Source: Oscillospiraceae bacterium
Lineage (GTDB): Bacteria > Bacillota > Clostridia > Oscillospirales > Oscillospiraceae
NCBI GenBank assembly: GCA_902778115.1
Contig: CACYWG010000008.1
Span: 1 to 64,000 of the forward strand
Length of the DNA: 64,000 nt
Direction of reading: 5' to 3'
Part shown: one piece after another, positions 41,115 through 50,056 of the stretch
Numbering within the stretch: the stretch's first letter is position 1
Layout: each line of letters opens with the position of its first letter
Notes under the pieces: generated by a model
Databases searched by the model: none
What the model saw: the letters and a program-made list of their open reading frames with translations, nothing else
Told to the model about the DNA's origin: nothing
Made by a program: the position numbers and the translations under genes

Positions 41115-41157
41115 AACGCACCGTTTTGTACAAATTGCAAAACGGTGCGTTAATTTC
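41115..41157 (+). terminator. Terminator of the infB-ribF transcript
   Basis: AACGCACCGTTTTG pairs with CAAAACGGTGCGTT across a 9-nt loop and is followed by AATTTCTT. Confidence 0.8.
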
Positions 41158-41186
41158 TTGACAGATTGAATGGAACGTGATACATT
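41158..41186 (+). promoter_or_regulatory. Promoter of the Rnf-like operon
   Basis: Consensus TTGACA (41158-41163), 17-bp spacer, TACATT (41181-41186), immediately after the terminator. No operator palindrome is visible. Confidence 0.75.
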
Positions 41187-41244: not shown

Positions 41245-42246
41245 ATGAAAAAGATTTTTGCACTGATCCTTGCACTGTGCATGGTTCTGGCGCTGGCTGC
41301 CTGCGGCGCGCCGAAGACTGCCGAGTACAAGCTGGGCATGGGCATCAGCCTGAACATGGACAGCTCCAAGGAAGGCAACGCGCAGGTCGACGCCTGCTGC
41401 GCCGCCGTCGTGCTTGACGCCGAAGGCAAGATCGTCGCCGCCAAGATCGACGTTGCGCAGAACAAGATGGACATCACCGACGGCCAGGTTGCCACTGACG
41501 CTGAGTTCAAGACCAAGCTCGAGCTGGGCGACGACTACAACATGGTCAAGTTCTCCGATGCTACCCATGAATGGTACGAGCAGGCTGCCGCTTTCGAGCA
41601 GTATGTGATCGGCAAGACCGCCGACGAGGTCTCCGGCATGCCCACCACCACCCTCGATAACGGCCATGTCGTCACCACCGACGAGGCCCTCTACGCCACC
41701 TGCTCCATCTCCATCAGCGATTTCCAGGAAGCCATCGTGAAGGCCTGCAACGACGAGCAGGGCAAGAGCTTCACCTCCGACGGCAACTTCAAGCTCGGTC
41801 TCGCCATCAACTCCACCGCTGACGAGTCCAAGGCTGCCACCGCCGAGGAAGACGGCGTTGTGAAGATGTACAGCGAGTTCGGCGCTGTCGTTCTCGGTGC
41901 CGACGGCAAGATCCTTGCCGCTGTGACCGACGCCACCCAGCCGCAGATCACCATCAACGCTGCCGGCGAGATCGTCGAGACCAAGTTCGGCGGCACCAAG
42001 CGTGAGCTGAAGGAAGGCTACAACATGGTCGCTTACTCCAACGCCACCCTCGAGTGGTACGAGCAGGCCAAGAACTTCACCGACTTTGCCACCGGCAAGA
42101 CCCCCGCTGAGCTGCAGGGCGTCGAGACCAAGGTCAATGACGAAGGCCACACCGTTTTCGCCGACGAGGCGCTGTACGCCAGCGTTTCCATCAGCATCGA
42201 CGGCATGACCGCCGTCCTGGTCAAGGCTGCGAATAACGCCGCCTGA
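41245..42246 (+). CDS. Lipoprotein with two tandem homologous domains, Rnf-associated
   Basis: 333 residues. Lipoprotein signal with lipobox LAAC (Cys20). The mature protein is an internal duplication: domain 1 starts YKLGMGISLNMDSS and domain 2 FKLGLAINSTADES. Both contain A-x-V-L-x-A-x-GKI-A-A, a GYNMV-like (DYNMV/GYNMV) element, EWYEQA and D-EALYA-SISI segments. The strand pattern (VLDAEGKIVAAKID) resembles FMN-binding RnfG/NosR-type domains, but no S/T-G-A-T flavinylation motif is present. It is first in the operon, so it is likely an extracytoplasmic partner of the complex. The family name is not known to me. Confidence 0.75.
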   Translation: MKKIFALILALCMVLALAACGAPKTAEYKLGMGISLNMDSSKEGNAQVDACCAAVVLDAEGKIVAAKIDVAQNKMDITDGQVATDAEFKTKLELGDDYNMVKFSDATHEWYEQAAAFEQYVIGKTADEVSGMPTTTLDNGHVVTTDEALYATCSISISDFQEAIVKACNDEQGKSFTSDGNFKLGLAINSTADESKAATAEEDGVVKMYSEFGAVVLGADGKILAAVTDATQPQITINAAGEIVETKFGGTKRELKEGYNMVAYSNATLEWYEQAKNFTDFATGKTPAELQGVETKVNDEGHTVFADEALYASVSISIDGMTAVLVKAANNAA

Positions 42247-42268: not shown

Positions 42269-43354
42269 ATGAACGCGTTGCACTTTGCAAAACGAATCTG
42301 CGCGCTCCTGCTGCTTCTGGCACTGCTGTCGGCTCTGGCCGGCTGCGGGCAGAGCGGTGATGAGAGCGCCGCGCCGGAGGCGATCGAGCCGAAGGGCAAG
42401 GTGTACTACAGCTATTTCGACACCGTCTCCTATGTATATGACTACGCAGGAGATTCGGCAGAACGGTTTGACGACCGTTCTGCCGAAGTTTCGCTTATTC
42501 TGCAGGAATATCACCAGCTTTTCGACATCTATCACGAGTATGCGGGCGTGGTGAATCTCTGCACGCTCAACAAGGCTGCGGGTGGCGAGGCGCTTTCGCT
42601 CGACCCGCGGCTGATCGACTTTCTGCTGACGGCGCGGGATATGTATGACCTGACCGGCGGGGAAATGAACGTGATGCTCGGCGCGGTGCTGCGCCTCTGG
42701 CACGACTGCCGGGAGGCGGCCTCGACCGACCCGGAACACGCTTCGATCCCGACGGAGGAGCAGTTGAAGGAAGCCGAGGGGCATACCGGCATCGAACTGC
42801 TGGAGATCGACGCCGAGAAGGGCACGGCCCGCATTACGGATCCGCTGGCCTCCATCGACGTCGGCGCGCTCGGCAAGGGCTACGCCGTCGAGCGGGCGGC
42901 GGAGTATCTGGAGAGCGTGGGCGCCGAGGGCTATGTGCTCAACGTCGGCGGCAACATCCGCTGCATCGGCGCAAGGCCGGACGGCAGCGGCTGGGTTACG
43001 GCGATCCGCAATCCGGACCGCGCCGCGGAGGATTTTGCGCTGCGCATCCGCATCAGCGACACGGCCTGCGTGACCTCCGGCATCTATGAGCGCTATTTTA
43101 CGGTGGACGGTGTACGCTACCACCACATCATCGATAAAGATACCCTGAACCCGGCGGCATACTACGAATCGCTGACGGTGATCACCCGGGACAGCGGTCT
43201 GGCAGACGCGCTGTCGACGGCGCTGTTCTGCATGCCCTGGGAGGAGAGCGTCCGCCTGGCGGAGAGCCTGGAGGGCGTGGAGGCGCTGTGGATCTTCCCG
43301 GACGGGGAGCAGCGCAGCACTTCCGGCTTCGCCGCCTACGCGGCAGAAGCCTGA
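42269..43354 (+). CDS. apbE: FAD:protein FMN transferase ApbE (lipoprotein)
   Basis: 361 residues with a lipobox LAGC near residue 26, so the enzyme acts on the outer face. ApbE signatures: YFDTVSYVYDY, the flavin-site TGGEMNVMLGAVLRLWHD near 130, and SIDVGALGKGYAVERAAEYL near 195, plus DTACVTSGIYERYF near 270. It attaches FMN through a phosphoester bond to threonine or serine in S/T-G-A-T/S motifs. The RnfD and RnfG proteins encoded downstream both carry such motifs. Confidence 0.93.
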   Translation: MNALHFAKRICALLLLLALLSALAGCGQSGDESAAPEAIEPKGKVYYSYFDTVSYVYDYAGDSAERFDDRSAEVSLILQEYHQLFDIYHEYAGVVNLCTLNKAAGGEALSLDPRLIDFLLTARDMYDLTGGEMNVMLGAVLRLWHDCREAASTDPEHASIPTEEQLKEAEGHTGIELLEIDAEKGTARITDPLASIDVGALGKGYAVERAAEYLESVGAEGYVLNVGGNIRCIGARPDGSGWVTAIRNPDRAAEDFALRIRISDTACVTSGIYERYFTVDGVRYHHIIDKDTLNPAAYYESLTVITRDSGLADALSTALFCMPWEESVRLAESLEGVEALWIFPDGEQRSTSGFAAYAAEA

Positions 43355-43424
43355 CAAGGGGCGATGCGTCCCCAATGCGAAACTTCATTTGAAAAGCGAA
43401 ATCAATAGAATTGAGGTGGGAAAC

Positions 43425-44762
43425 TTGAGAAAAAATATCTCGACCCTGAAACTGCCCCACTATAAAAGCACGGCCGGCTGCGCCGCCGTGCGCATCCCGG
43501 TACCCAAAGAGGTGCTGCTTCCCGTATCGCCGATGAACTCCCACTCGGCCACGGCGGCCGAGCCCGTGGTGCAGGTCGGCGACCACGTCCGCGTCGGACA
43601 GCTGATCGCCAAGGAAAAGGACCGCGGCAGCTCGGACATCCATGCCTCGATCTCCGGCACGGTCAAGGCCATCGAGCCCTGTGCCCAGGGCGGGCGCAAG
43701 TCCATCGCGATCCGCATCGAGAGCGACGGGAAAATGGAAAAGTACCCCGATCTGCCGATCCCGCAGCCCACGAACCTGGACGAGTTCCTGGAATGTGTGC
43801 GCCTGAGCGGCACGGTCGGCCTGGGCGGCGCGGCCTATCCCGTGTGGGCCAAGCTCTCCGCCGCGCAGAAAAACCACATCGGCACCGTGCTCATCAATGG
43901 CGCCGAGTGCGAGCCCTTCATCACCAGCGACCACCGCGCTATGCTCGAGTGCGGGGATCTGGTCAAGAAGGGCGTGGAGCTTCTCAAGCAGTTCCTCGGC
44001 AGCGAGGAATTCATCTTTGGCATCGAGAAGAACAAGCCGGACGCCATCGAGGCGATGAAGAAGCTCTTTGCCGACGATCCGGCCGTGAAGGTGCTGGAGC
44101 TGAGCAGCGTGTATCCGCAGGGCGCCAAGCAGGTGCTGCTCTATAATGCCACCGGCAAGGTGGTGAAAAAGGGCGAGCGTCTGGCCAGCCTCGGCGTGAT
44201 CATCATCAACGTCTCCTCGCTGATCAAGATGGCGGAGTATTTCGTCACCGGCATGCCGATGGTCGAGCGCATCATCACCGTGGACGGCAGCGCCGTCAAG
44301 GAGCCGAAGAACCTGATCGTGCCGATCGGCGTCTCCGTGCGCGACATCGTGGAGGCCTGCGGCGGACTGAAGGAAGAGCCGGGCAAGATCCTCTTCGGCG
44401 GCGCGATGATGGGCAAGACCCAGGAGTCGCTGGACGCGCACATCCTCAAGGCGACCAACGCGGTCGTCATCATGAATCAGAAGGACGCCGCACAGACGGA
44501 GCCCTCTCCCTGCATCCACTGCGGACGCTGCGTCGCGGTCTGCCCGCTCGGCCTGAACCCGACGGCCTTTGACCGGGCCATGCAGGTCGAGGACGAGGAG
44601 AAGCGCGCCGAGATCCTGACCAAAGAGCAGGTCAAGGTGTGCATGGAGTGCGGCTGCTGCAGCTATGTCTGCCCGTCCCACCGCCCGCTGGCCGCAAACA
44701 ACAACGCCGCCATCGGCTTCATCCGCAGCTGGGAGCGCGCGCACAAGGAAGGAGGGAAGTAA
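43425..44762 (+). CDS. rnfC: RnfC-like NADH-binding subunit
   Basis: 445-residue peripheral subunit. N-terminal barrel-sandwich segment (VQVGDHVRVGQLIAKEK), then the flavin/NADH domain of the complex I 51-kDa type with GTVGLGGAAYPVWAKL near residue 130 and INGAECEPFITSDHR, the SLBB region, and two C-terminal 4Fe-4S motifs, CIHCGRCVAVCP and CMECGCCSYVCP. TTG 43425 has GAGGTGGG upstream. It is expected to take electrons from, or give them to, NADH on the cytoplasmic side. Confidence 0.9.
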   Translation: MRKNISTLKLPHYKSTAGCAAVRIPVPKEVLLPVSPMNSHSATAAEPVVQVGDHVRVGQLIAKEKDRGSSDIHASISGTVKAIEPCAQGGRKSIAIRIESDGKMEKYPDLPIPQPTNLDEFLECVRLSGTVGLGGAAYPVWAKLSAAQKNHIGTVLINGAECEPFITSDHRAMLECGDLVKKGVELLKQFLGSEEFIFGIEKNKPDAIEAMKKLFADDPAVKVLELSSVYPQGAKQVLLYNATGKVVKKGERLASLGVIIINVSSLIKMAEYFVTGMPMVERIITVDGSAVKEPKNLIVPIGVSVRDIVEACGGLKEEPGKILFGGAMMGKTQESLDAHILKATNAVVIMNQKDAAQTEPSPCIHCGRCVAVCPLGLNPTAFDRAMQVEDEEKRAEILTKEQVKVCMECGCCSYVCPSHRPLAANNNAAIGFIRSWERAHKEGGK

Positions 44763-44765
44763 GGC

Positions 44766-45692
44766 ATGAATTCACCCGTTATGGCCACCGGCCCGCACAT
44801 CCACAGCAAGGATAACAGCCGCCGGATCATGCTGGACGTGATCATCGCGCTGCTTCCCGCCGCCGTCGCCGCTGTCGTCCTCTACGGCCTGCCGGCCCTG
44901 TGGATGATCCTCGTCTGCGTCGTCAGCGCGGTCGCTTCCGAGATCCTTTTTAATCTCTGCACCGGCAAGGCGCAGTCCGTCGGCGATCTGAGCGCCGTCG
45001 TGACCGGCCTGCTGCTTGCGCTGAACCTGAGCACCAGGGTGCCGCTCTGGCAGTGCGTGCTCGGCAGCGTGTTCGCCATCGTGCTCGTCAAGTGCGCGTT
45101 CGGCGGCATCGGCCGCAACTTCGCCAACCCCGCCATCACCGCCCGCGTCTTCCTGCTGGCGGCTTTCAGCTCCACCGTCGCCGGCGGCGCCTTCCCGAAG
45201 GCGGTCGACGCGGTGTCCTCCGCCACGCCCCTGGAGCTCATCGGCGTGGAAGGCGCGGAGCTTCCGAGCCTTCTGGACATGTTCCTGGGCCTGCGCGGCG
45301 GCGCCATCGGCGAGGGCTGCATCCTGGCCCTGCTGCTCGGCTTTGCTTACCTGCTCGTCCGCCGCGTGATCCGCTGGCAGACCCCGGTGATCTTCGTCGG
45401 CACCGTGTTCGTGCTGTCTCTGATCGCCACCGGCAGCCTGACGGCCGCTACATATGAGATCCTCGCCGGCGGCCTGGTGCTCGGCGCCGTGTTTATGGCC
45501 ACCGACTACAGCACCACGCCCCTCACCCTCGAGGGCAAGGCCCTCTTCGCGCTCGGCTGCGGCGTCATCACCTTTGTGATCCGCTTCTTCTGCGCCTATC
45601 CCGAGGGCGTGTCCTTCTCCATTCTGTGCATGAACATTCTCGCGCCCTGGCTCGAGAAATGGACGCGCAGAAAGCCGCTGGGAGGTGAATGA
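44766..45692 (+). CDS. rnfD: RnfD-like flavinylated membrane subunit
   Basis: 308 residues, about ten hydrophobic segments, usual RnfD/NqrB-type fold. GIGRNFANPAITARVFLLAAF near residue 115 is conserved, and VSSATPLELIG near 155 contains the threonine to which FMN is covalently attached in the family (usually SGATP). FMATDYSTTPLT near residue 240 is another signature. Starts 3 bp after rnfC. It probably carries an electron across or along the membrane. Confidence 0.9.
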   Translation: MNSPVMATGPHIHSKDNSRRIMLDVIIALLPAAVAAVVLYGLPALWMILVCVVSAVASEILFNLCTGKAQSVGDLSAVVTGLLLALNLSTRVPLWQCVLGSVFAIVLVKCAFGGIGRNFANPAITARVFLLAAFSSTVAGGAFPKAVDAVSSATPLELIGVEGAELPSLLDMFLGLRGGAIGEGCILALLLGFAYLLVRRVIRWQTPVIFVGTVFVLSLIATGSLTAATYEILAGGLVLGAVFMATDYSTTPLTLEGKALFALGCGVITFVIRFFCAYPEGVSFSILCMNILAPWLEKWTRRKPLGGE

Positions 45693-45693
45693 G

Positions 45694-46926
45694 ATGAATA
45701 AATCGATTCGTTCCGTCCTCTGCCTCGTGCTGCTGCTGGCTGTGATGCTGGGCGCCACCTGGGGCGTGAACGCTCTGACCGCTCCGATCGTCGAGGCCAA
45801 CGCCAAGGCTTTGCTGGGCGATGCGGTGCTGATCTATGACAGTGCCGATCCCTCCGCCTCCGCGCTCGCCGTCACGGCCGACACCGTGCAGCGCGTCTAC
45901 AAAGACGATACCAAGCAGCTTTTCACCGTCGATCTCAGCACCAGCGAGGGCTATTCCCACGGCCCGATCGACCTGAAGCTGACGGTCGACTTTGAGGGCA
46001 GGATCGCCGGCCTGGAGCTGGTTCAGAATTCCGACGACAAGGACCTCGGCGAGGCCTTCCTCCCGAGCTTTGCCGGCCAGGACTCCGCCCTCGGCGGCGT
46101 GGAGCTGGTCGCGGGCGTGACCTACTCCTCCTCCGCCATCCGCAACGCCGTCTCCGACGGCATGAATACCCTGATCGACAACGGCCTCATCACCGCCGGC
46201 CAGAAGAGCGCCGAGCAGCTGCTGGCCGAGCTGATCCCGAGCGTCTATCCGGGCCTTGTCAACAAGGCCGGCGCCATCCAGGGTGAGGAGCTTGAGGGCA
46301 GCGGCGTTGTGACCAAGGGCTACAAGGCCGCCAACGGAAGCGGCTCCGCCTGGTTCATCCAGGACGGCGAGAACGCATACCTCGGCGTGGCTGATTTTGT
46401 CGGCGGCGTGCTGATCTTTGATCTGGAGGGCAATCTTGTCGAGGACTCCGCGCTGCTGAGCGCGGTGGCCGAGCTGGCCGCTCCTGTCAACGACGACCTG
46501 CACGAGGCGCAGCAGAAGGCGCTGGCCAGGCTCCTGCCCGAGGGCGCGGAGCTCCAGCCGATGCAGCTCACCGGCCTTGCCAACTCCGTCACCGGCGCCT
46601 ATTATGTCCCGACGGGAGACGGCGTGCTCTATGCCTTCGTCGCGCGGCCCTACGGCTACGCCAACGAGGTGATGGAGCTCTACTATGTGCTCGACGAGAA
46701 CGGCGCGATCGTTGCGATGCGCGCCAAGGAGCTCATCCTGCACAGCGAATACTTCACCAGCTACACGCTGGACGAGAGCTCCTACAGAGATAACTTCCTG
46801 GGCCTGACGGCGGACGAATACGCCGGTGAGGAGGCGCTGATCACCGGCGCCACGATGAGCAGCGACGCGGTCGATACCGCGACGCGGGACGTGTTTGAGG
46901 CCTTTCGCCTCGCCACCGCGAACTGA
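45694..46926 (+). CDS. rnfG: RnfG-like protein with two FMN-binding modules
   Basis: 410 residues, about twice the usual RnfG length. N-terminal transmembrane anchor (about 7-27), then an FMN_bind module ending in AGVTYSSSAIRNAV (near 140) and a second ending in ITGATMSSDAVDTATRDV (near 390). The second carries a standard T-G-A-T flavinylation motif; in the first the acceptor threonine and following serines remain, but the preceding S/T-G-A has become A-G-V. It therefore may hold one or two covalent FMNs. ATG 45694 follows GGAGGTGA within the rnfD end. Confidence 0.85.
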   Translation: MNKSIRSVLCLVLLLAVMLGATWGVNALTAPIVEANAKALLGDAVLIYDSADPSASALAVTADTVQRVYKDDTKQLFTVDLSTSEGYSHGPIDLKLTVDFEGRIAGLELVQNSDDKDLGEAFLPSFAGQDSALGGVELVAGVTYSSSAIRNAVSDGMNTLIDNGLITAGQKSAEQLLAELIPSVYPGLVNKAGAIQGEELEGSGVVTKGYKAANGSGSAWFIQDGENAYLGVADFVGGVLIFDLEGNLVEDSALLSAVAELAAPVNDDLHEAQQKALARLLPEGAELQPMQLTGLANSVTGAYYVPTGDGVLYAFVARPYGYANEVMELYYVLDENGAIVAMRAKELILHSEYFTSYTLDESSYRDNFLGLTADEYAGEEALITGATMSSDAVDTATRDVFEAFRLATAN

Positions 46927-46938
46927 GGAGGTGCGCAC

Positions 46939-47556
46939 ATGAAGAAAATCCATCCTGTGACGCTTCTGTTCCTTGGCGCCGTGCCCGCGCTGGCGGCCTC
47001 CGCCGACGTGCGCGCTGCGCTCGGCATGAGCCTGGCGGTGCTGCTGGTGCTGCTGTGCTCCACCCTGCTGCTGGGTCTGCTGCGCAAGCTGATCCCTTCC
47101 GAAGCCAAACTTCCGGCCGCCGTGCTGACGGTGGCGGGCTTTGCCTCGATGGCGCAGCTGCTGCTGAACGCTTTCCTGCCCACGGCAACCTCCATGCTGG
47201 GCCTTTACCTTGCAGTCCTGGCGGTCGATCTGATGATCTTCTCCGCTGCGGAGACCGCACTTGACGAGGGCCTCGGCGCTGCGCTGGGCCGCGCCGTGCT
47301 CACCGCCGTCTGCTTTGCGGTCTTTGCTCTGATCCTCGCCGCGCTGCGCGAGATCTTCGGCGCGGCCAGCTTTGCCGGCCATGAGATCGCCGCGCTCAAG
47401 GCGTACCGCATCCCGCTGCTGCTCCAGAGCTCCGGCGGACTGATCCTCTACAGCATCCTGCTGGCCGTGGTCAACCGCATCTTCCCCGCCGGCCAAGCGC
47501 AGGGCAAGCTGACCCGCGCCGCCGTCGGCCTTGCGCCGGAGAATAAGGAGGCCTGA
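46939..47556 (+). CDS. rnfE: RnfE-like membrane subunit lacking the cluster cysteines
   Basis: 205 residues, six hydrophobic segments. Residues LLFLGAVPALAA (near 9-20) align with the canonical LGLCPLLA, with the cluster-binding cysteine replaced by Val15. The second canonical site, TNC-x4-GRAEAFA, aligns with AVDLMIFSAAETAL, with Leu98 at the cysteine position. Two other cysteines (40 and about 128) are not at ligand positions. ALREIFG near residue 135 and overall topology support the RnfE assignment. Confidence 0.8.
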   Translation: MKKIHPVTLLFLGAVPALAASADVRAALGMSLAVLLVLLCSTLLLGLLRKLIPSEAKLPAAVLTVAGFASMAQLLLNAFLPTATSMLGLYLAVLAVDLMIFSAAETALDEGLGAALGRAVLTAVCFAVFALILAALREIFGAASFAGHEIAALKAYRIPLLLQSSGGLILYSILLAVVNRIFPAGQAQGKLTRAAVGLAPENKEA

Positions 47557-47558
47557 GC

Positions 47559-48089
47559 ATGAAAGAACTGATTTTGCTGGTGCTGGGCTTTGTCCTGGTC
47601 AACAACTACGCGCTGACGGCCTATTTCGGCCTCACGCCGCTGATGGGCTTTGCCTCGCGGCGTGAAAAGATCCTCGTGCTGGGCCTCTCGGTCACGGGCG
47701 TGATGCTCGTCGCCTCCGCGATCCTCTGGCTGCTGCGCGGCCTGATCCCTGCCTGGGCGCAGATCCTCTGCGGCGTGGTCGTGGTGCTGGTGCTGGTGTA
47801 CCTGCTACAGCTGCTGCTGGGCAAGCGCCTCGGCCTGTACTTCCCGGTCATCGCGCTCAACAGTGCGGTGCTCGCCATCGCCCTGCAGCTCACCGCCGCC
47901 GACAGCATCGTCACGGTGCTCTTAAGCGCGCTGGGCGCCGGTCTCGGCTTCCTCTTCGGCCTGTTCCTGCTGGACGGTCTGGAGGCGCGTATCGAGGACG
48001 ATCAGCTGCCCAAGGCCTTCCGCGGGCTGCCGATCCGCGTGCTCGCCGCCGCGATCATCGCCCTGGCGATCTCCGCGTTCAAGTTCTGA
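47559..48089 (+). CDS. rnfA: RnfA-like membrane subunit lacking the cluster cysteines
   Basis: 176 residues, six hydrophobic segments. VNNYALTAYFGLTPLMG matches canonical VNN-x7-GLCPFMG with cysteine replaced by Thr26. FPVIALNSAVLAIAL matches FLPLITTNCAVLGVAL with cysteine replaced by Ser102. The inverted-topology partner RnfE shows the same losses. ILCG at Cys71 is elsewhere. C-terminal FRGLPIRVLAAAIIALAI matches the RnfA end. The stop codon overlaps the next start (TGATG). Confidence 0.85.
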   Translation: MKELILLVLGFVLVNNYALTAYFGLTPLMGFASRREKILVLGLSVTGVMLVASAILWLLRGLIPAWAQILCGVVVVLVLVYLLQLLLGKRLGLYFPVIALNSAVLAIALQLTAADSIVTVLLSALGAGLGFLFGLFLLDGLEARIEDDQLPKAFRGLPIRVLAAAIIALAISAFKF

Positions 48090-48469
48090 TGAAGCGGCTT
48101 TTCGCCAACAAAAAGCTGCTGGCCGATCTGTGCGTCATCCTCGCGCTGCTGCTTCTGGCAGGCGGCCTCGCCCTCGCGCTCCGTCTGGGGCGCGAGGCGG
48201 GCGGCCAGGCCGTCGTGCGCGTGGACGGACGGGTGACCGAGCGTCACTCCCTCGCGGAAAACGGCGTCTATCCCCTCAACGGCGGGAGCAATATCCTCGT
48301 CATCGAAAACGGTGAAGCTTTTCTCCGCGAGGCAAACTGCCCGGACCTTCTGTGCGTCAAGCAGGGGAGGATCCGCTATAACGGCCAGACCATCACCTGC
48401 CTGCCGAACCGCCTGACCGTGACGGTCGAGGGCGGGGAATCCAACGGCGTGGACTTTACCGTGGGGTGA
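48089..48469 (+). CDS. NusG domain II-family membrane-anchored protein
   Basis: 126 residues: one N-terminal transmembrane helix (about 10-32) and an extracytoplasmic NusG_II beta domain with two conserved cysteines in NCPDLLCVKQG and a third in ITCLPNRLTVTVEG. The family name is historical; this is not the transcription factor NusG. Proteins of this type travel with Rnf operons and Gx-transporter genes in Firmicutes. Translation is coupled to rnfA. The cysteine pair may be redox-active or bind a cofactor. Confidence 0.87.
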   Translation: MKRLFANKKLLADLCVILALLLLAGGLALALRLGREAGGQAVVRVDGRVTERHSLAENGVYPLNGGSNILVIENGEAFLREANCPDLLCVKQGRIRYNGQTITCLPNRLTVTVEGGESNGVDFTVG

Positions 48470-48473
48470 CGCG

Positions 48474-48953
48474 ATGAAAGCAAAACGAGTCACCGTGATG
48501 GCCATGTGCATCGCACTGGCCATGATCCTCTCCTATGTGGAGAGCCAGATCCCCTCGCCGGGCATCCCGGGCGTGAAGCTGGGCCTTGCCAACCTTGTCG
48601 TGGTCTTTGCGCTCTACCGCCTGGGCTGGAAGGAGGCCGCCGGCATTTCGCTGCTGCGCGTGTTCCTGGTCTCGCTCCTCTTCGGCCACGCCGCGAGCCT
48701 TGCCTACAGCGCTTCCGGCGCGGCGCTCAGCCTCGTCGGCATGATCCTGCTGAAGAAGTGGGACAAGCTCAGCTGCGTCGCGGTCAGCGTGATCGGCGGC
48801 GTGCTGCATAACGCCGGTCAGATCCTGATGGCCTGGGCGCTGATGGGCGCCAACGTCGTCTGGTACCTCCCGGTGCTGATCCTCAGCGGCACGATAGCGG
48901 GCGTCGCGATCGGCGTCGTCTCCGCAATCCTTGTCAAGCGCATCAAACTGTGA
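48474..48953 (+). CDS. Gx transporter-family membrane protein
   Basis: 159 residues, about five transmembrane segments with the glycine-x pattern of the family (SPGIPGVKLGLANLVVVFAL, ISLLRVFLVSLLFGHAASL). It is often mislabelled heptaprenyl diphosphate synthase component I, but it has no prenyltransferase aspartate motifs. The fold is related to ECF-type substrate-binding subunits. With the NusG_II protein it resembles the EetA/EetB pair of the Listeria extracellular electron transfer locus (from memory). Last gene of the operon. Confidence 0.85.
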   Translation: MKAKRVTVMAMCIALAMILSYVESQIPSPGIPGVKLGLANLVVVFALYRLGWKEAAGISLLRVFLVSLLFGHAASLAYSASGAALSLVGMILLKKWDKLSCVAVSVIGGVLHNAGQILMAWALMGANVVWYLPVLILSGTIAGVAIGVVSAILVKRIKL

Positions 48954-48959
48954 TATAAT
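48931..48959 (+). promoter_or_regulatory. Promoter-like sequence at the end of the Gx gene
   Basis: TTGTCA (48931-48936), 17-bp spacer, consensus TATAAT (48954-48959). Its start point would fall inside the following terminator stem, so a transcript would begin with a truncated hairpin. Confidence 0.45.
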
Positions 48960-48992
48960 GCGTCTCAACCAATGGTTGAGATGCATTTTTTT
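48960..48992 (+). terminator. Terminator of the Rnf-like operon
   Basis: GCGTCTCAACC pairs with GGTTGAGATGC across AAT and is followed by ATTTTTTT. Confidence 0.88.
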
Positions 48993-49041: not shown

Positions 49042-49318
49042 TTGTGCCAGAAGCAGAAAGGAGGTTCTCCGATGAGCGAAGGCGTGAACGAGAGCACAGG
49101 CGCGATCATCGCCCGGAAGCGCAGGGAACACGGCCTGACCCGGGAACTGCTGGCCGGGGAACTTGGCATCGGCTTTCTGTTACGATTTATGCCAGAAACT
49201 GAAAGGAGCTTCACCGATGAACGAGAACGTGAACGAGAGCATGGGCGCGATCATCGCCCGTAAACGCAAGGAACATGGCCTGACCCAGGAGCAGCTGGCC
49301 GGGGAACTGGGCATCAGC
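49029..49318 (+). repeat. Tandem duplication of a 145-bp unit (XRE gene 5' end)
   Basis: 49029-49173 and 49174-49318 align without gaps with about 21 differences. Each unit contains TACGATTT, a Shine-Dalgarno sequence, an ATG and the first 34 codons of an XRE-type helix-turn-helix. Only the second unit continues into a full gene. Confidence 0.85.
49072..49263 (+). pseudogene. Truncated XRE helix-turn-helix remnant
   Basis: ATG 49072 behind AAAGGAGG opens a frame beginning MSEGVNESTGAIIARKRREH, homologous to the start of the following regulator. After the first DNA-binding helices (LTRELLAGELGIG) it runs into the second unit in a wrong frame and stops at 49263. It has good translation signals, so a short peptide may be made, but the helix-turn-helix is incomplete. 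It overlaps the start of the intact gene and may affect its translation. Confidence 0.7.
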
Positions 49319-50056
49319 TATCAGGCGGTCAGCAAATGGGAAAACGAGCTTTCGAGTCCCGATATCTCCACGCTGCCGCTGCTGGCGGATCTGTTCGACA
49401 TCACGATCGACGAGCTCTTCGGGCGCGTGCCGACAAAGGCGGAGCCGGAGCAGGCGCTGATCCCTGCGGCGGAGCCTGTGCGCAGCGCGGGCGTGGAGCT
49501 TCCCTGGGAGGACGACGATACGCTGCGCGCGGTACTCTTTAAAGGGCAGCGCCTGGTCGGACACGAGGACGCATCCTTCTGCCCCGTCGCGGAAAAGATC
49601 GTTCTGCGCTATACAGGCGACGCCCTGGATGTGCAGAGCTGCTTTGACGTGAACGTGGAGGGCAGCGTGCGCGGCAGCGCCAGCGCCCAGGGCGACGTGA
49701 ACTGCGGTGCGGTGGGCGGCCCGGTCTCGGCCGGCGGCGACGTGAACTGCGGCGACGTGGGCGGCCCGGTCTCTGCCGGCGGCGACGTGGACTGCGGCAG
49801 CGTGTCCGGCAACCTCAACGCCGGCGGCGACGTGGACTGCGATAACGTCGAGGGCAACGTCAACGCGGGCTGTGACGTCGACTGCGACAGCGTCAGAGGC
49901 TCCGTCAGCGCGGGCGGAGACGTGGACTGCGACAGCGTCGGCGGCGACGTGCGCGCTGATGGCGACGTGAACTGCGACGGCATTGCGGACGACGGCGAAT
50001 TCCATTCCAATCTCAAGGACAAAAAGCGCGGCTTCAGCTTTGAACTGAAGCTTTGA
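49217..50056 (+). CDS. XRE regulator with C-terminal 15-residue Cys repeat
   Basis: 279 residues. XRE-type helix-turn-helix at about 10-65 (LTQEQLAGELGISYQAVSKW). A linker domain to about 145 is followed by seven 15-residue repeats with consensus GDVDCxxVxGxVxAG (158-260). Cysteines fall at 163, 178, 193, 208, 223, 238 and 253, exactly 15 apart, plus Cys219. Such regular glycine- and valine-rich repeats suggest a beta-solenoid like bactofilins, on which these cysteines would stack in a line. The C-terminal end is a basic segment. Target genes and ligand are unknown; its only close neighbours are the Rnf-like operon upstream and the partner-switching genes downstream. Confidence 0.8.
   Translation: MNENVNESMGAIIARKRKEHGLTQEQLAGELGISYQAVSKWENELSSPDISTLPLLADLFDITIDELFGRVPTKAEPEQALIPAAEPVRSAGVELPWEDDDTLRAVLFKGQRLVGHEDASFCPVAEKIVLRYTGDALDVQSCFDVNVEGSVRGSASAQGDVNCGAVGGPVSAGGDVNCGDVGGPVSAGGDVDCGSVSGNLNAGGDVDCDNVEGNVNAGCDVDCDSVRGSVSAGGDVDCDSVGGDVRADGDVNCDGIADDGEFHSNLKDKKRGFSFELKL

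Follow-up and report, generated by a model that had tools for sequence, protein, structure and literature searches.

An Rnf operon without RnfB and without any of the four RnfA/RnfE cluster cysteines, in a genome that keeps a canonical Rnf elsewhere, is the new element of the locus described here. Its first gene encodes an internally duplicated lipoprotein (LIPO), which is probably a surface lipoprotein built of two FMN-bind-fold domains of an FMN-bind2-like kind, and the outermost carrier of an electron-export operon.

The window (the whole 64,000-nucleotide stretch of DNA that was analysed) carries an operon of nine forward-strand genes in the order LIPO, apbE, rnfC, rnfD, rnfG-type, rnfE, rnfA, eetA and eetB. 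The lipoprotein gene (41245-42246) is followed by a gene for an ApbE flavin transferase with its own lipoprotein-type start (42269..43354; PF02424, E 1.4e-62), and then by genes for RnfC (43389..44762; Pfam domains and TIGR01945 at 385.7 bits, over the cut-off), with an FMN/NADH domain, an SLBB domain and two CxxCxxCxxxC clusters, and RnfD with a flavinylation-type motif, DAVSSATPL (44766..45692; PF03116 and TIGR01946 at 275.3 bits, over the cut-off). The protein in the RnfG position has 413 residues and two FMN_bind stretches (45685..46926; PF04205, E 6.3e-12); homologues of RnfE (46939..47556) and RnfA (47559..48089) come next, followed by an EetA-like NusG domain II protein (48089..48469; PF07009, E 6.6e-25) and an EetB-like protein (48474..48953; PF07456, E 1.3e-38). 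PF07456 is the family to which the S subunit for FAD export belongs, the function given for EetB in PMC9973259. Consensus scans placed a terminator-like hairpin of 16 pairs between ribF and the operon (41115..41151) and another of 14 pairs after eetB (48957..48987), and a sigma-70-like promoter, TTGACA-17-TACATT, with 10/12 matches and a TG before the second hexamer, lies at 41158..41186. Because of the hairpin and promoter-like site between ribF and position 41245 and the hairpin that closes the operon, LIPO is taken to open a single unit, in keeping with the original prediction that it heads an Rnf-like operon. High expression had also been proposed from codon use; the codon index of LIPO is the highest of the nine genes (0.668, against 0.47-0.66 for the other eight, with the single gene infB as reference) and ACC makes up 93% of its threonine codons, which is mild support and nothing beyond.

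The LIPO product (P0001, 333 residues) has the lipobox LAAC, in agreement with the proposed lipid anchor at Cys20. Its duplication is real: residues 25-176 align with 177-333 at a BLOSUM62 local score of 278, whereas 1000 shuffles of the second half gave a mean of 33.7 (sd 6.0) and a maximum of 62, and the segments said to be common to both halves (DYNMV/GYNMV, EWYEQA and EALYA-SISI) were all found. The repeat unit is about 153 residues long, and the two FMN-bind-type repeats cover residues about 27-172 and 180-331. P0001 is the only full-length member of its family found in its own genome, three other matches there being signal peptides and not family members. Across the family two repeats are the rule (142 proteins), with one protein each at four and at six, and five open reading frames carry a single repeat; of these five, L038 accounts for two, the pieces of a split gene, L196 and L198 are at the ends of contigs, and L187 is unexplained. 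Within the six-repeat protein (L044:7866-10850) and the four-repeat protein (L054:8871-10961) pairs of repeats are nearly identical. In an Oscillospiraceae MAG from goat cecum (L096:4204-9933) the double repeat forms the C-terminal part of a 1910-residue protein that also has BspA-type leucine-rich repeats and a dockerin domain, suggesting that the flavin module may be displayed on a surface scaffold.

No known family had come to mind for the repeats, and Pfam and NCBIfam models indeed leave them uncovered. PF04205 is not in the match table of P0001 at E up to 1, nor is it among the families listed for the 22 members of set A1 (the best 25 of 54, down to a single-member E of 0.056); weak matches to lipoprotein families (LptM, LytA and others) covered mainly the signal peptide and were set aside. 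The relation emerges from comparison with the PDB, where 2kzx was reached twice, by the 22-member A1 profile (E 8.4e-7) and by a 64-member profile of first repeats (E 9.8e-7). In both alignments the T/S of the family falls on the Thr of the 2kzx sequence DAISGAT, and the aligned 74-residue piece of 2kzx itself matches PF04205 FMN_bind at E 2e-5. AlphaFold2 models of the whole protein (pLDDT 95.3, pTM 0.89) and of a single repeat (pLDDT 95.2, pTM 0.89) scored alike. Foldseek returned nothing below E 1e-3 with the two-domain or the single-repeat model, and VIA-align of the full two-domain model had 2kzx as its best row at a Z of 6.2; one repeat folded alone gave clearer VIA-align rows, headed by 2kzx (Z 8.7; 3.4 A over 112 aligned residues) and 3o6u (Z 8.3; 3.2 A over 108). 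The IscU-like and CO-dehydrogenase-like rows that came next (Z up to 6.5) were taken as common arrangements, and a profile comparison of LIPO with the RnfG-type protein of the window gave nothing. In the predicted models, then, the repeat has the FMN-bind fold, and the likeness to FMN-binding modules that had been suggested holds both in the fold rows (2kzx, 3o6u) and in the profile matches to 2kzx, profile search and single-repeat structure prediction leading alike to FMN-bind proteins.

Two published groups of proteins invite comparison. FMN-bind2, as described in part of PMC11334425 (mSystems 2024), is a longer type of about 160 residues that often occurs in two or four copies, 3o6u being the example structure given there for FMN-bind1. 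The LIPO repeat shares with FMN-bind2 its length (153 residues), even copy number, co-location with apbE and an FMN-bind core with extensions, and LIPO likely belongs to it, a match by published size and copy number. For the sheet-to-sheet packing of two domains with two flavin sites that marks FMN-bind2, the comparison extends to the confidence score of the two-domain LIPO model (pTM 0.89). Unlike the proteins in those descriptions of PMC11334425, LIPO heads an Rnf operon. The second group is PplA/Cad, from the EET loci of Listeria and Enterococcus whose composition is outlined in PMC7074142 and PMC9973259. Set against description only, LIPO resembles these proteins in being a lipoprotein of about 310-330 residues with two homologous domains, found beside apbE, ndh2 and prenyl genes. 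Cad/PplA orthologues have one or two SGAT motifs and resemble CPE2226 (3O6U) according to the relevant part of PMC7074142; the LIPO family, unlike them, mostly reads [DE]-L-x-[S/A]-x-[V/C]-[T/S] with no SGAT motif, and is not found by PF04205. The same source places cad-apbE only where rnf is missing, whereas the LIPO-apbE pair of the window heads an rnf operon. A search of plasmid records for PplA yielded solely an Acetoanaerobium replicon.

If LIPO carries flavin covalently, one would look for the acceptor near the end of each repeat, where Ser154 and Ser315 are the predicted candidate sites. The substrate motif of ApbE is given in the portion of PMC12052999 that deals with it as D-x-x-[S/T]-G-A-[S/T], and the tests described there found that a Ser acceptor cuts flavinylation (10-55%), as do changes of the G and A (about half). 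This exact motif is in no listed 7-mer of A1, of a second, overlapping set (A2) or of the phylum set. Among the variants seen in the family are DLTSSVT, ELTSSVT, DLAASVT and DITTGCT, and the window clade has motifs among the most degenerate of all, those of the window itself (ALYATCS and ALYASVS) having neither the Asp nor the Gly-Ala, and Ser for Thr. The acceptor column, however, is Ser or Thr in all 64 first and all 64 second repeats of A2 and in 22/22 first and 21/22 second repeats of A1 (171/172 repeats for the two sets together, which share sequences), as well as in 79/79 scorable repeats phylum-wide, a count that includes the two window repeats and to which contig ends denied two more. 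Window residues 41 and 104 mark two further columns that are likewise always Ser or Thr phylum-wide, so that a conserved hydroxyl is by itself no proof of attachment. The sole exception in A1 is an Ala at the acceptor of repeat 2 in L049:9513-10586(-), a gene that lies beside a UbiA-like gene and has no adjoining apbE.

The second line of evidence is the neighbourhood of the gene. ApbE is so common (178/200 genomes of the same bacterial family) that adjacency is informative and co-presence is not, and apbE lies directly downstream of LIPO in 24 of the 26 loci from that family. The same is true of 73/80 loci on named contigs (71 by a strict rule, plus L131 and L139, where apbE ORF calls overlap); these are the best 80 of 473 relatives, a choice in which close relatives carry too much weight, and some contigs of the 26-locus set recur among them. 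Phylum-wide the pair is found at 34/40 loci; in half of the six misses (L188, L196, L210) the contig ends, which leaves 34/37 evaluable loci. L048, L049 and seven of the best 80 loci have LIPO without an adjoining apbE. Many LIPO-apbE pairs have no rnf genes nearby, and the nine such loci that were read mostly have no other adjacent FMN_bind-like gene, a small SGAT protein lying two genes away in one (L191) and a possible one further on in another (L190).

That the lipoprotein has no flavinylation motif and binds flavin non-covalently, as originally suggested, is unsupported for the family, given the nearly invariant acceptor column and the regular presence of apbE downstream. A reading along these lines would have the FMN-bind-fold protein bind free flavin reversibly, scavenging it or holding it as a shuttle, with ApbE modifying only the RnfG-type protein and RnfD. 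The degenerate motif, strongly so in the window clade, favors it, as does the presence in the same operon of two ready ApbE substrates (ITGATMSS in the RnfG-type protein and DAVSSATPL in RnfD), but it accounts poorly for the conserved hydroxyl and for apbE pairs away from rnf with mostly no other adjacent FMN_bind-like gene, and we regard it as rather unlikely. Because of this conservation and these pairs, exclusively non-covalent binding was put second, and a covalent flavin on the window lipoprotein is what we infer. It is very improbable, in our estimate, that LIPO is a non-redox accessory, namely a scaffold or assembly factor that keeps ApbE or the RnfG-type protein in place at the membrane, or a sensor of the acceptor. 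Such a role would suit a protein whose only redox motif is degenerate and which regularly adjoins apbE; it fits less well with the FMN-bind fold in two domains per protein, with copies that rise in a carrier-like manner to four and six repeats, and with the place of LIPO in EET-type loci, which is that of the flavoprotein PplA.

Full LIPO proteins were found in 26/200 genomes of the same bacterial family, after 15 of 41 matching genomes had been removed ahead of counting as signal-peptide-only, and LIPO matches in 40/398 genomes of a phylum sample. An NDH2 gene and a prenyl synthase gene, usually with UbiA, lie beside LIPO at 17/80 loci (again the best 80 of 473 relatives), often also with eetA and eetB, and at 8/40 loci phylum-wide; the window locus itself has no NDH2/prenyl slot beside LIPO. 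RnfC is near LIPO at 21 of these 80 loci, and an rnf operon adjoins LIPO at none of the 40 phylum loci. The frequent occurrence away from rnf that had been named as counting against a redox role is therefore seen, but many of the loci concerned are themselves of redox type (NDH2/EET).

Compared with the Rnf complex (RnfCDGEAB), the window operon has homologues of RnfC, RnfD, RnfG, RnfE and RnfA in the same order, differing from it in the absence of RnfB, which was recognised neither among the ORFs nor by Pfam, in the absence of the RnfA/RnfE cysteines, and in the addition of LIPO, ApbE, EetA and EetB. Where canonical homologues align four cysteines, which we take to be the ligands of an intramembrane [2Fe-2S] cluster, RnfA has T and S and RnfE has V and L. 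The two losses go together across 25 distinct operons. RnfB-less operons with rnfA and rnfE (17 recovered, 15 distinct, since L040 duplicates the contig of L063, and L041 that of L070) have at most one of the four cysteines, while all four are kept in 7/7 LIPO-associated operons with RnfB and in three canonical rnf sets (L140, L141, L142). An apparent RnfB beside L040, L063 and L065 proved to be a long two-cluster protein on the opposite strand. The role of the cluster and the electron path in Rnf are treated in the corresponding part of PMC12174285.

One of the canonical sets, a complete rnfCDGEAB, is in the same genome as the window (L140, G000:C26:13000-26000), with no lipoprotein or apbE recognised in the surrounding 13 kb. 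One might thus regard the window Rnf part as a paralogue of the canonical Rnf that is in decay or has turned regulatory, and not as a working export complex, a notion that draws on this second copy and on the loss of RnfB and four cysteines. We consider it improbable, as all subunit frames are open, RnfC and RnfD exceed NCBIfam cut-offs, and 15 distinct operons share the stripped form and retain LIPO-ApbE.

Nine more loci have LIPO-apbE with only rnfC and rnfD recognised, without rnfE, rnfA or rnfB; an FMN_bind gene follows where readable, L047 and L054 being cut by contig ends. At two rnfCDG-only loci (L035:4877-5311(-) and L058:16423-16866) the rnfG-type gene is followed by a gene for a small hydrophobic protein with no Pfam match, which is probably a membrane protein and may stand in for RnfA/RnfE. 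In L058 (14018-16402) the RnfG-slot protein itself, of 794 residues, combines three FMN_bind domains with two LIPO-repeat-like domains, each with DVTSSATMS, near the canonical motif, a fusion that functionally ties the RnfG-type protein to LIPO. In a LIPO tree of 98 sequences, from which split, multi-repeat, fused or duplicate loci (L036, L038, L040, L041, L044, L054, L059, L096) and ORF calls outside 290-480 residues (at least L105, 580 residues) were omitted, 15 RnfB-less-operon rows lie within a set of 20, together with four unclassified rows and L091. The latter has the order LIPO-apbE-rnfCDGEAB and all cysteines, an arrangement such as an ancestral form would be expected to have. The tree needs five label changes, so several events are possible.

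With respect to mechanism, we propose that FAD is brought outside with the help of EetB, and that the adjacent ApbE would place FMN onto a Ser/Thr close to where each LIPO repeat ends (Ser154, Ser315), the same enzyme also flavinylating the RnfG-type protein and RnfD. NADH would be oxidised at RnfC, from where electrons would pass through RnfD across the membrane to the two-domain protein in the RnfG position, then to the two flavins of LIPO, and finally to an external acceptor such as Fe(III), soluble flavin or a reductase. The shuttling of electrons by the lipoprotein, one of the roles first suggested, is rated likely; its redox activity, like the direction of flow and the acceptor, we infer. 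Three parts remain in the operon: RnfC on the NADH side, RnfD as the flavoprotein of the membrane, and an outer flavin subunit. With the ferredoxin-side entry gone, which means both RnfB and the [2Fe-2S] cluster of RnfA/RnfE, the operon would work in one direction, NADH-outward, in parallel with the complete canonical Rnf of the same genome. A point against this scheme is that the window apbE could serve only the RnfG-type protein and RnfD. Moreover, L. plantarum does not need PplA for anode current according to part of PMC8837199, and a PplA-like role thus need not be essential.

Tentatively, and with slightly less than even confidence, we see here a distinct Rnf-derived class that keeps RnfC-D-G, has shed RnfB and the RnfA/RnfE cluster (or RnfA/RnfE altogether), and would act as a one-way NADH-driven exporter ending in a double-flavin lipoprotein. 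The same tentative proposal would make a ferredoxin:NAD+ energy converter its ancestral function, with a terminal module plugged onto different inner-membrane donors; that module (LIPO, ApbE, EetA, EetB) is common to the NDH2/quinone route, which suggests one outer module with several donors. As an idea, one-way flow to an extracytosolic FMN domain has a parallel in the NQR/RNF-like systems, in which RnfD/NqrB is fused to an NqrF-type NAD domain (PF00175), as set out in part of PMC8238504 (eLife 2021). The window RnfD, unlike theirs, is unfused (PF03116 only), and RnfC would be the NADH entry.

The large survey of flavin-based extracytosolic electron transfer in PMC8238504, in the part that gives its markers, relied on FMN-binding and ApbE genes and called Rnf by RnfB. 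Since the LIPO family escapes PF04205 and the operon escapes the RnfB rule, a two-flavin carrier and a stripped Rnf could go unnoticed or be classed with ordinary Rnf, and no description of an RnfB-less or lipoprotein-headed Rnf was found in the open-licence literature. If the proposal is true, the usual rules miss an NADH-driven electron outlet in a set of gut-type Clostridia, and the way in which RnfB and the RnfA/RnfE cluster are lost together would be a natural test of the roles of the two halves of Rnf.

Two further features of the window may be recorded. An Rfam scan of all 64 kb gave no match; inside the start of apbE there is a perfect 15-pair hairpin (42454-42487) followed by GTTTCGCTTA, identical in a near relative (L060), which could yield more lipoprotein than downstream message. 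Beyond the operon, the interval 49163-50056 has a helix-turn-helix-like start, followed by many repeats of the type G-G-D-V-[D/N]-C with regularly spaced cysteines.
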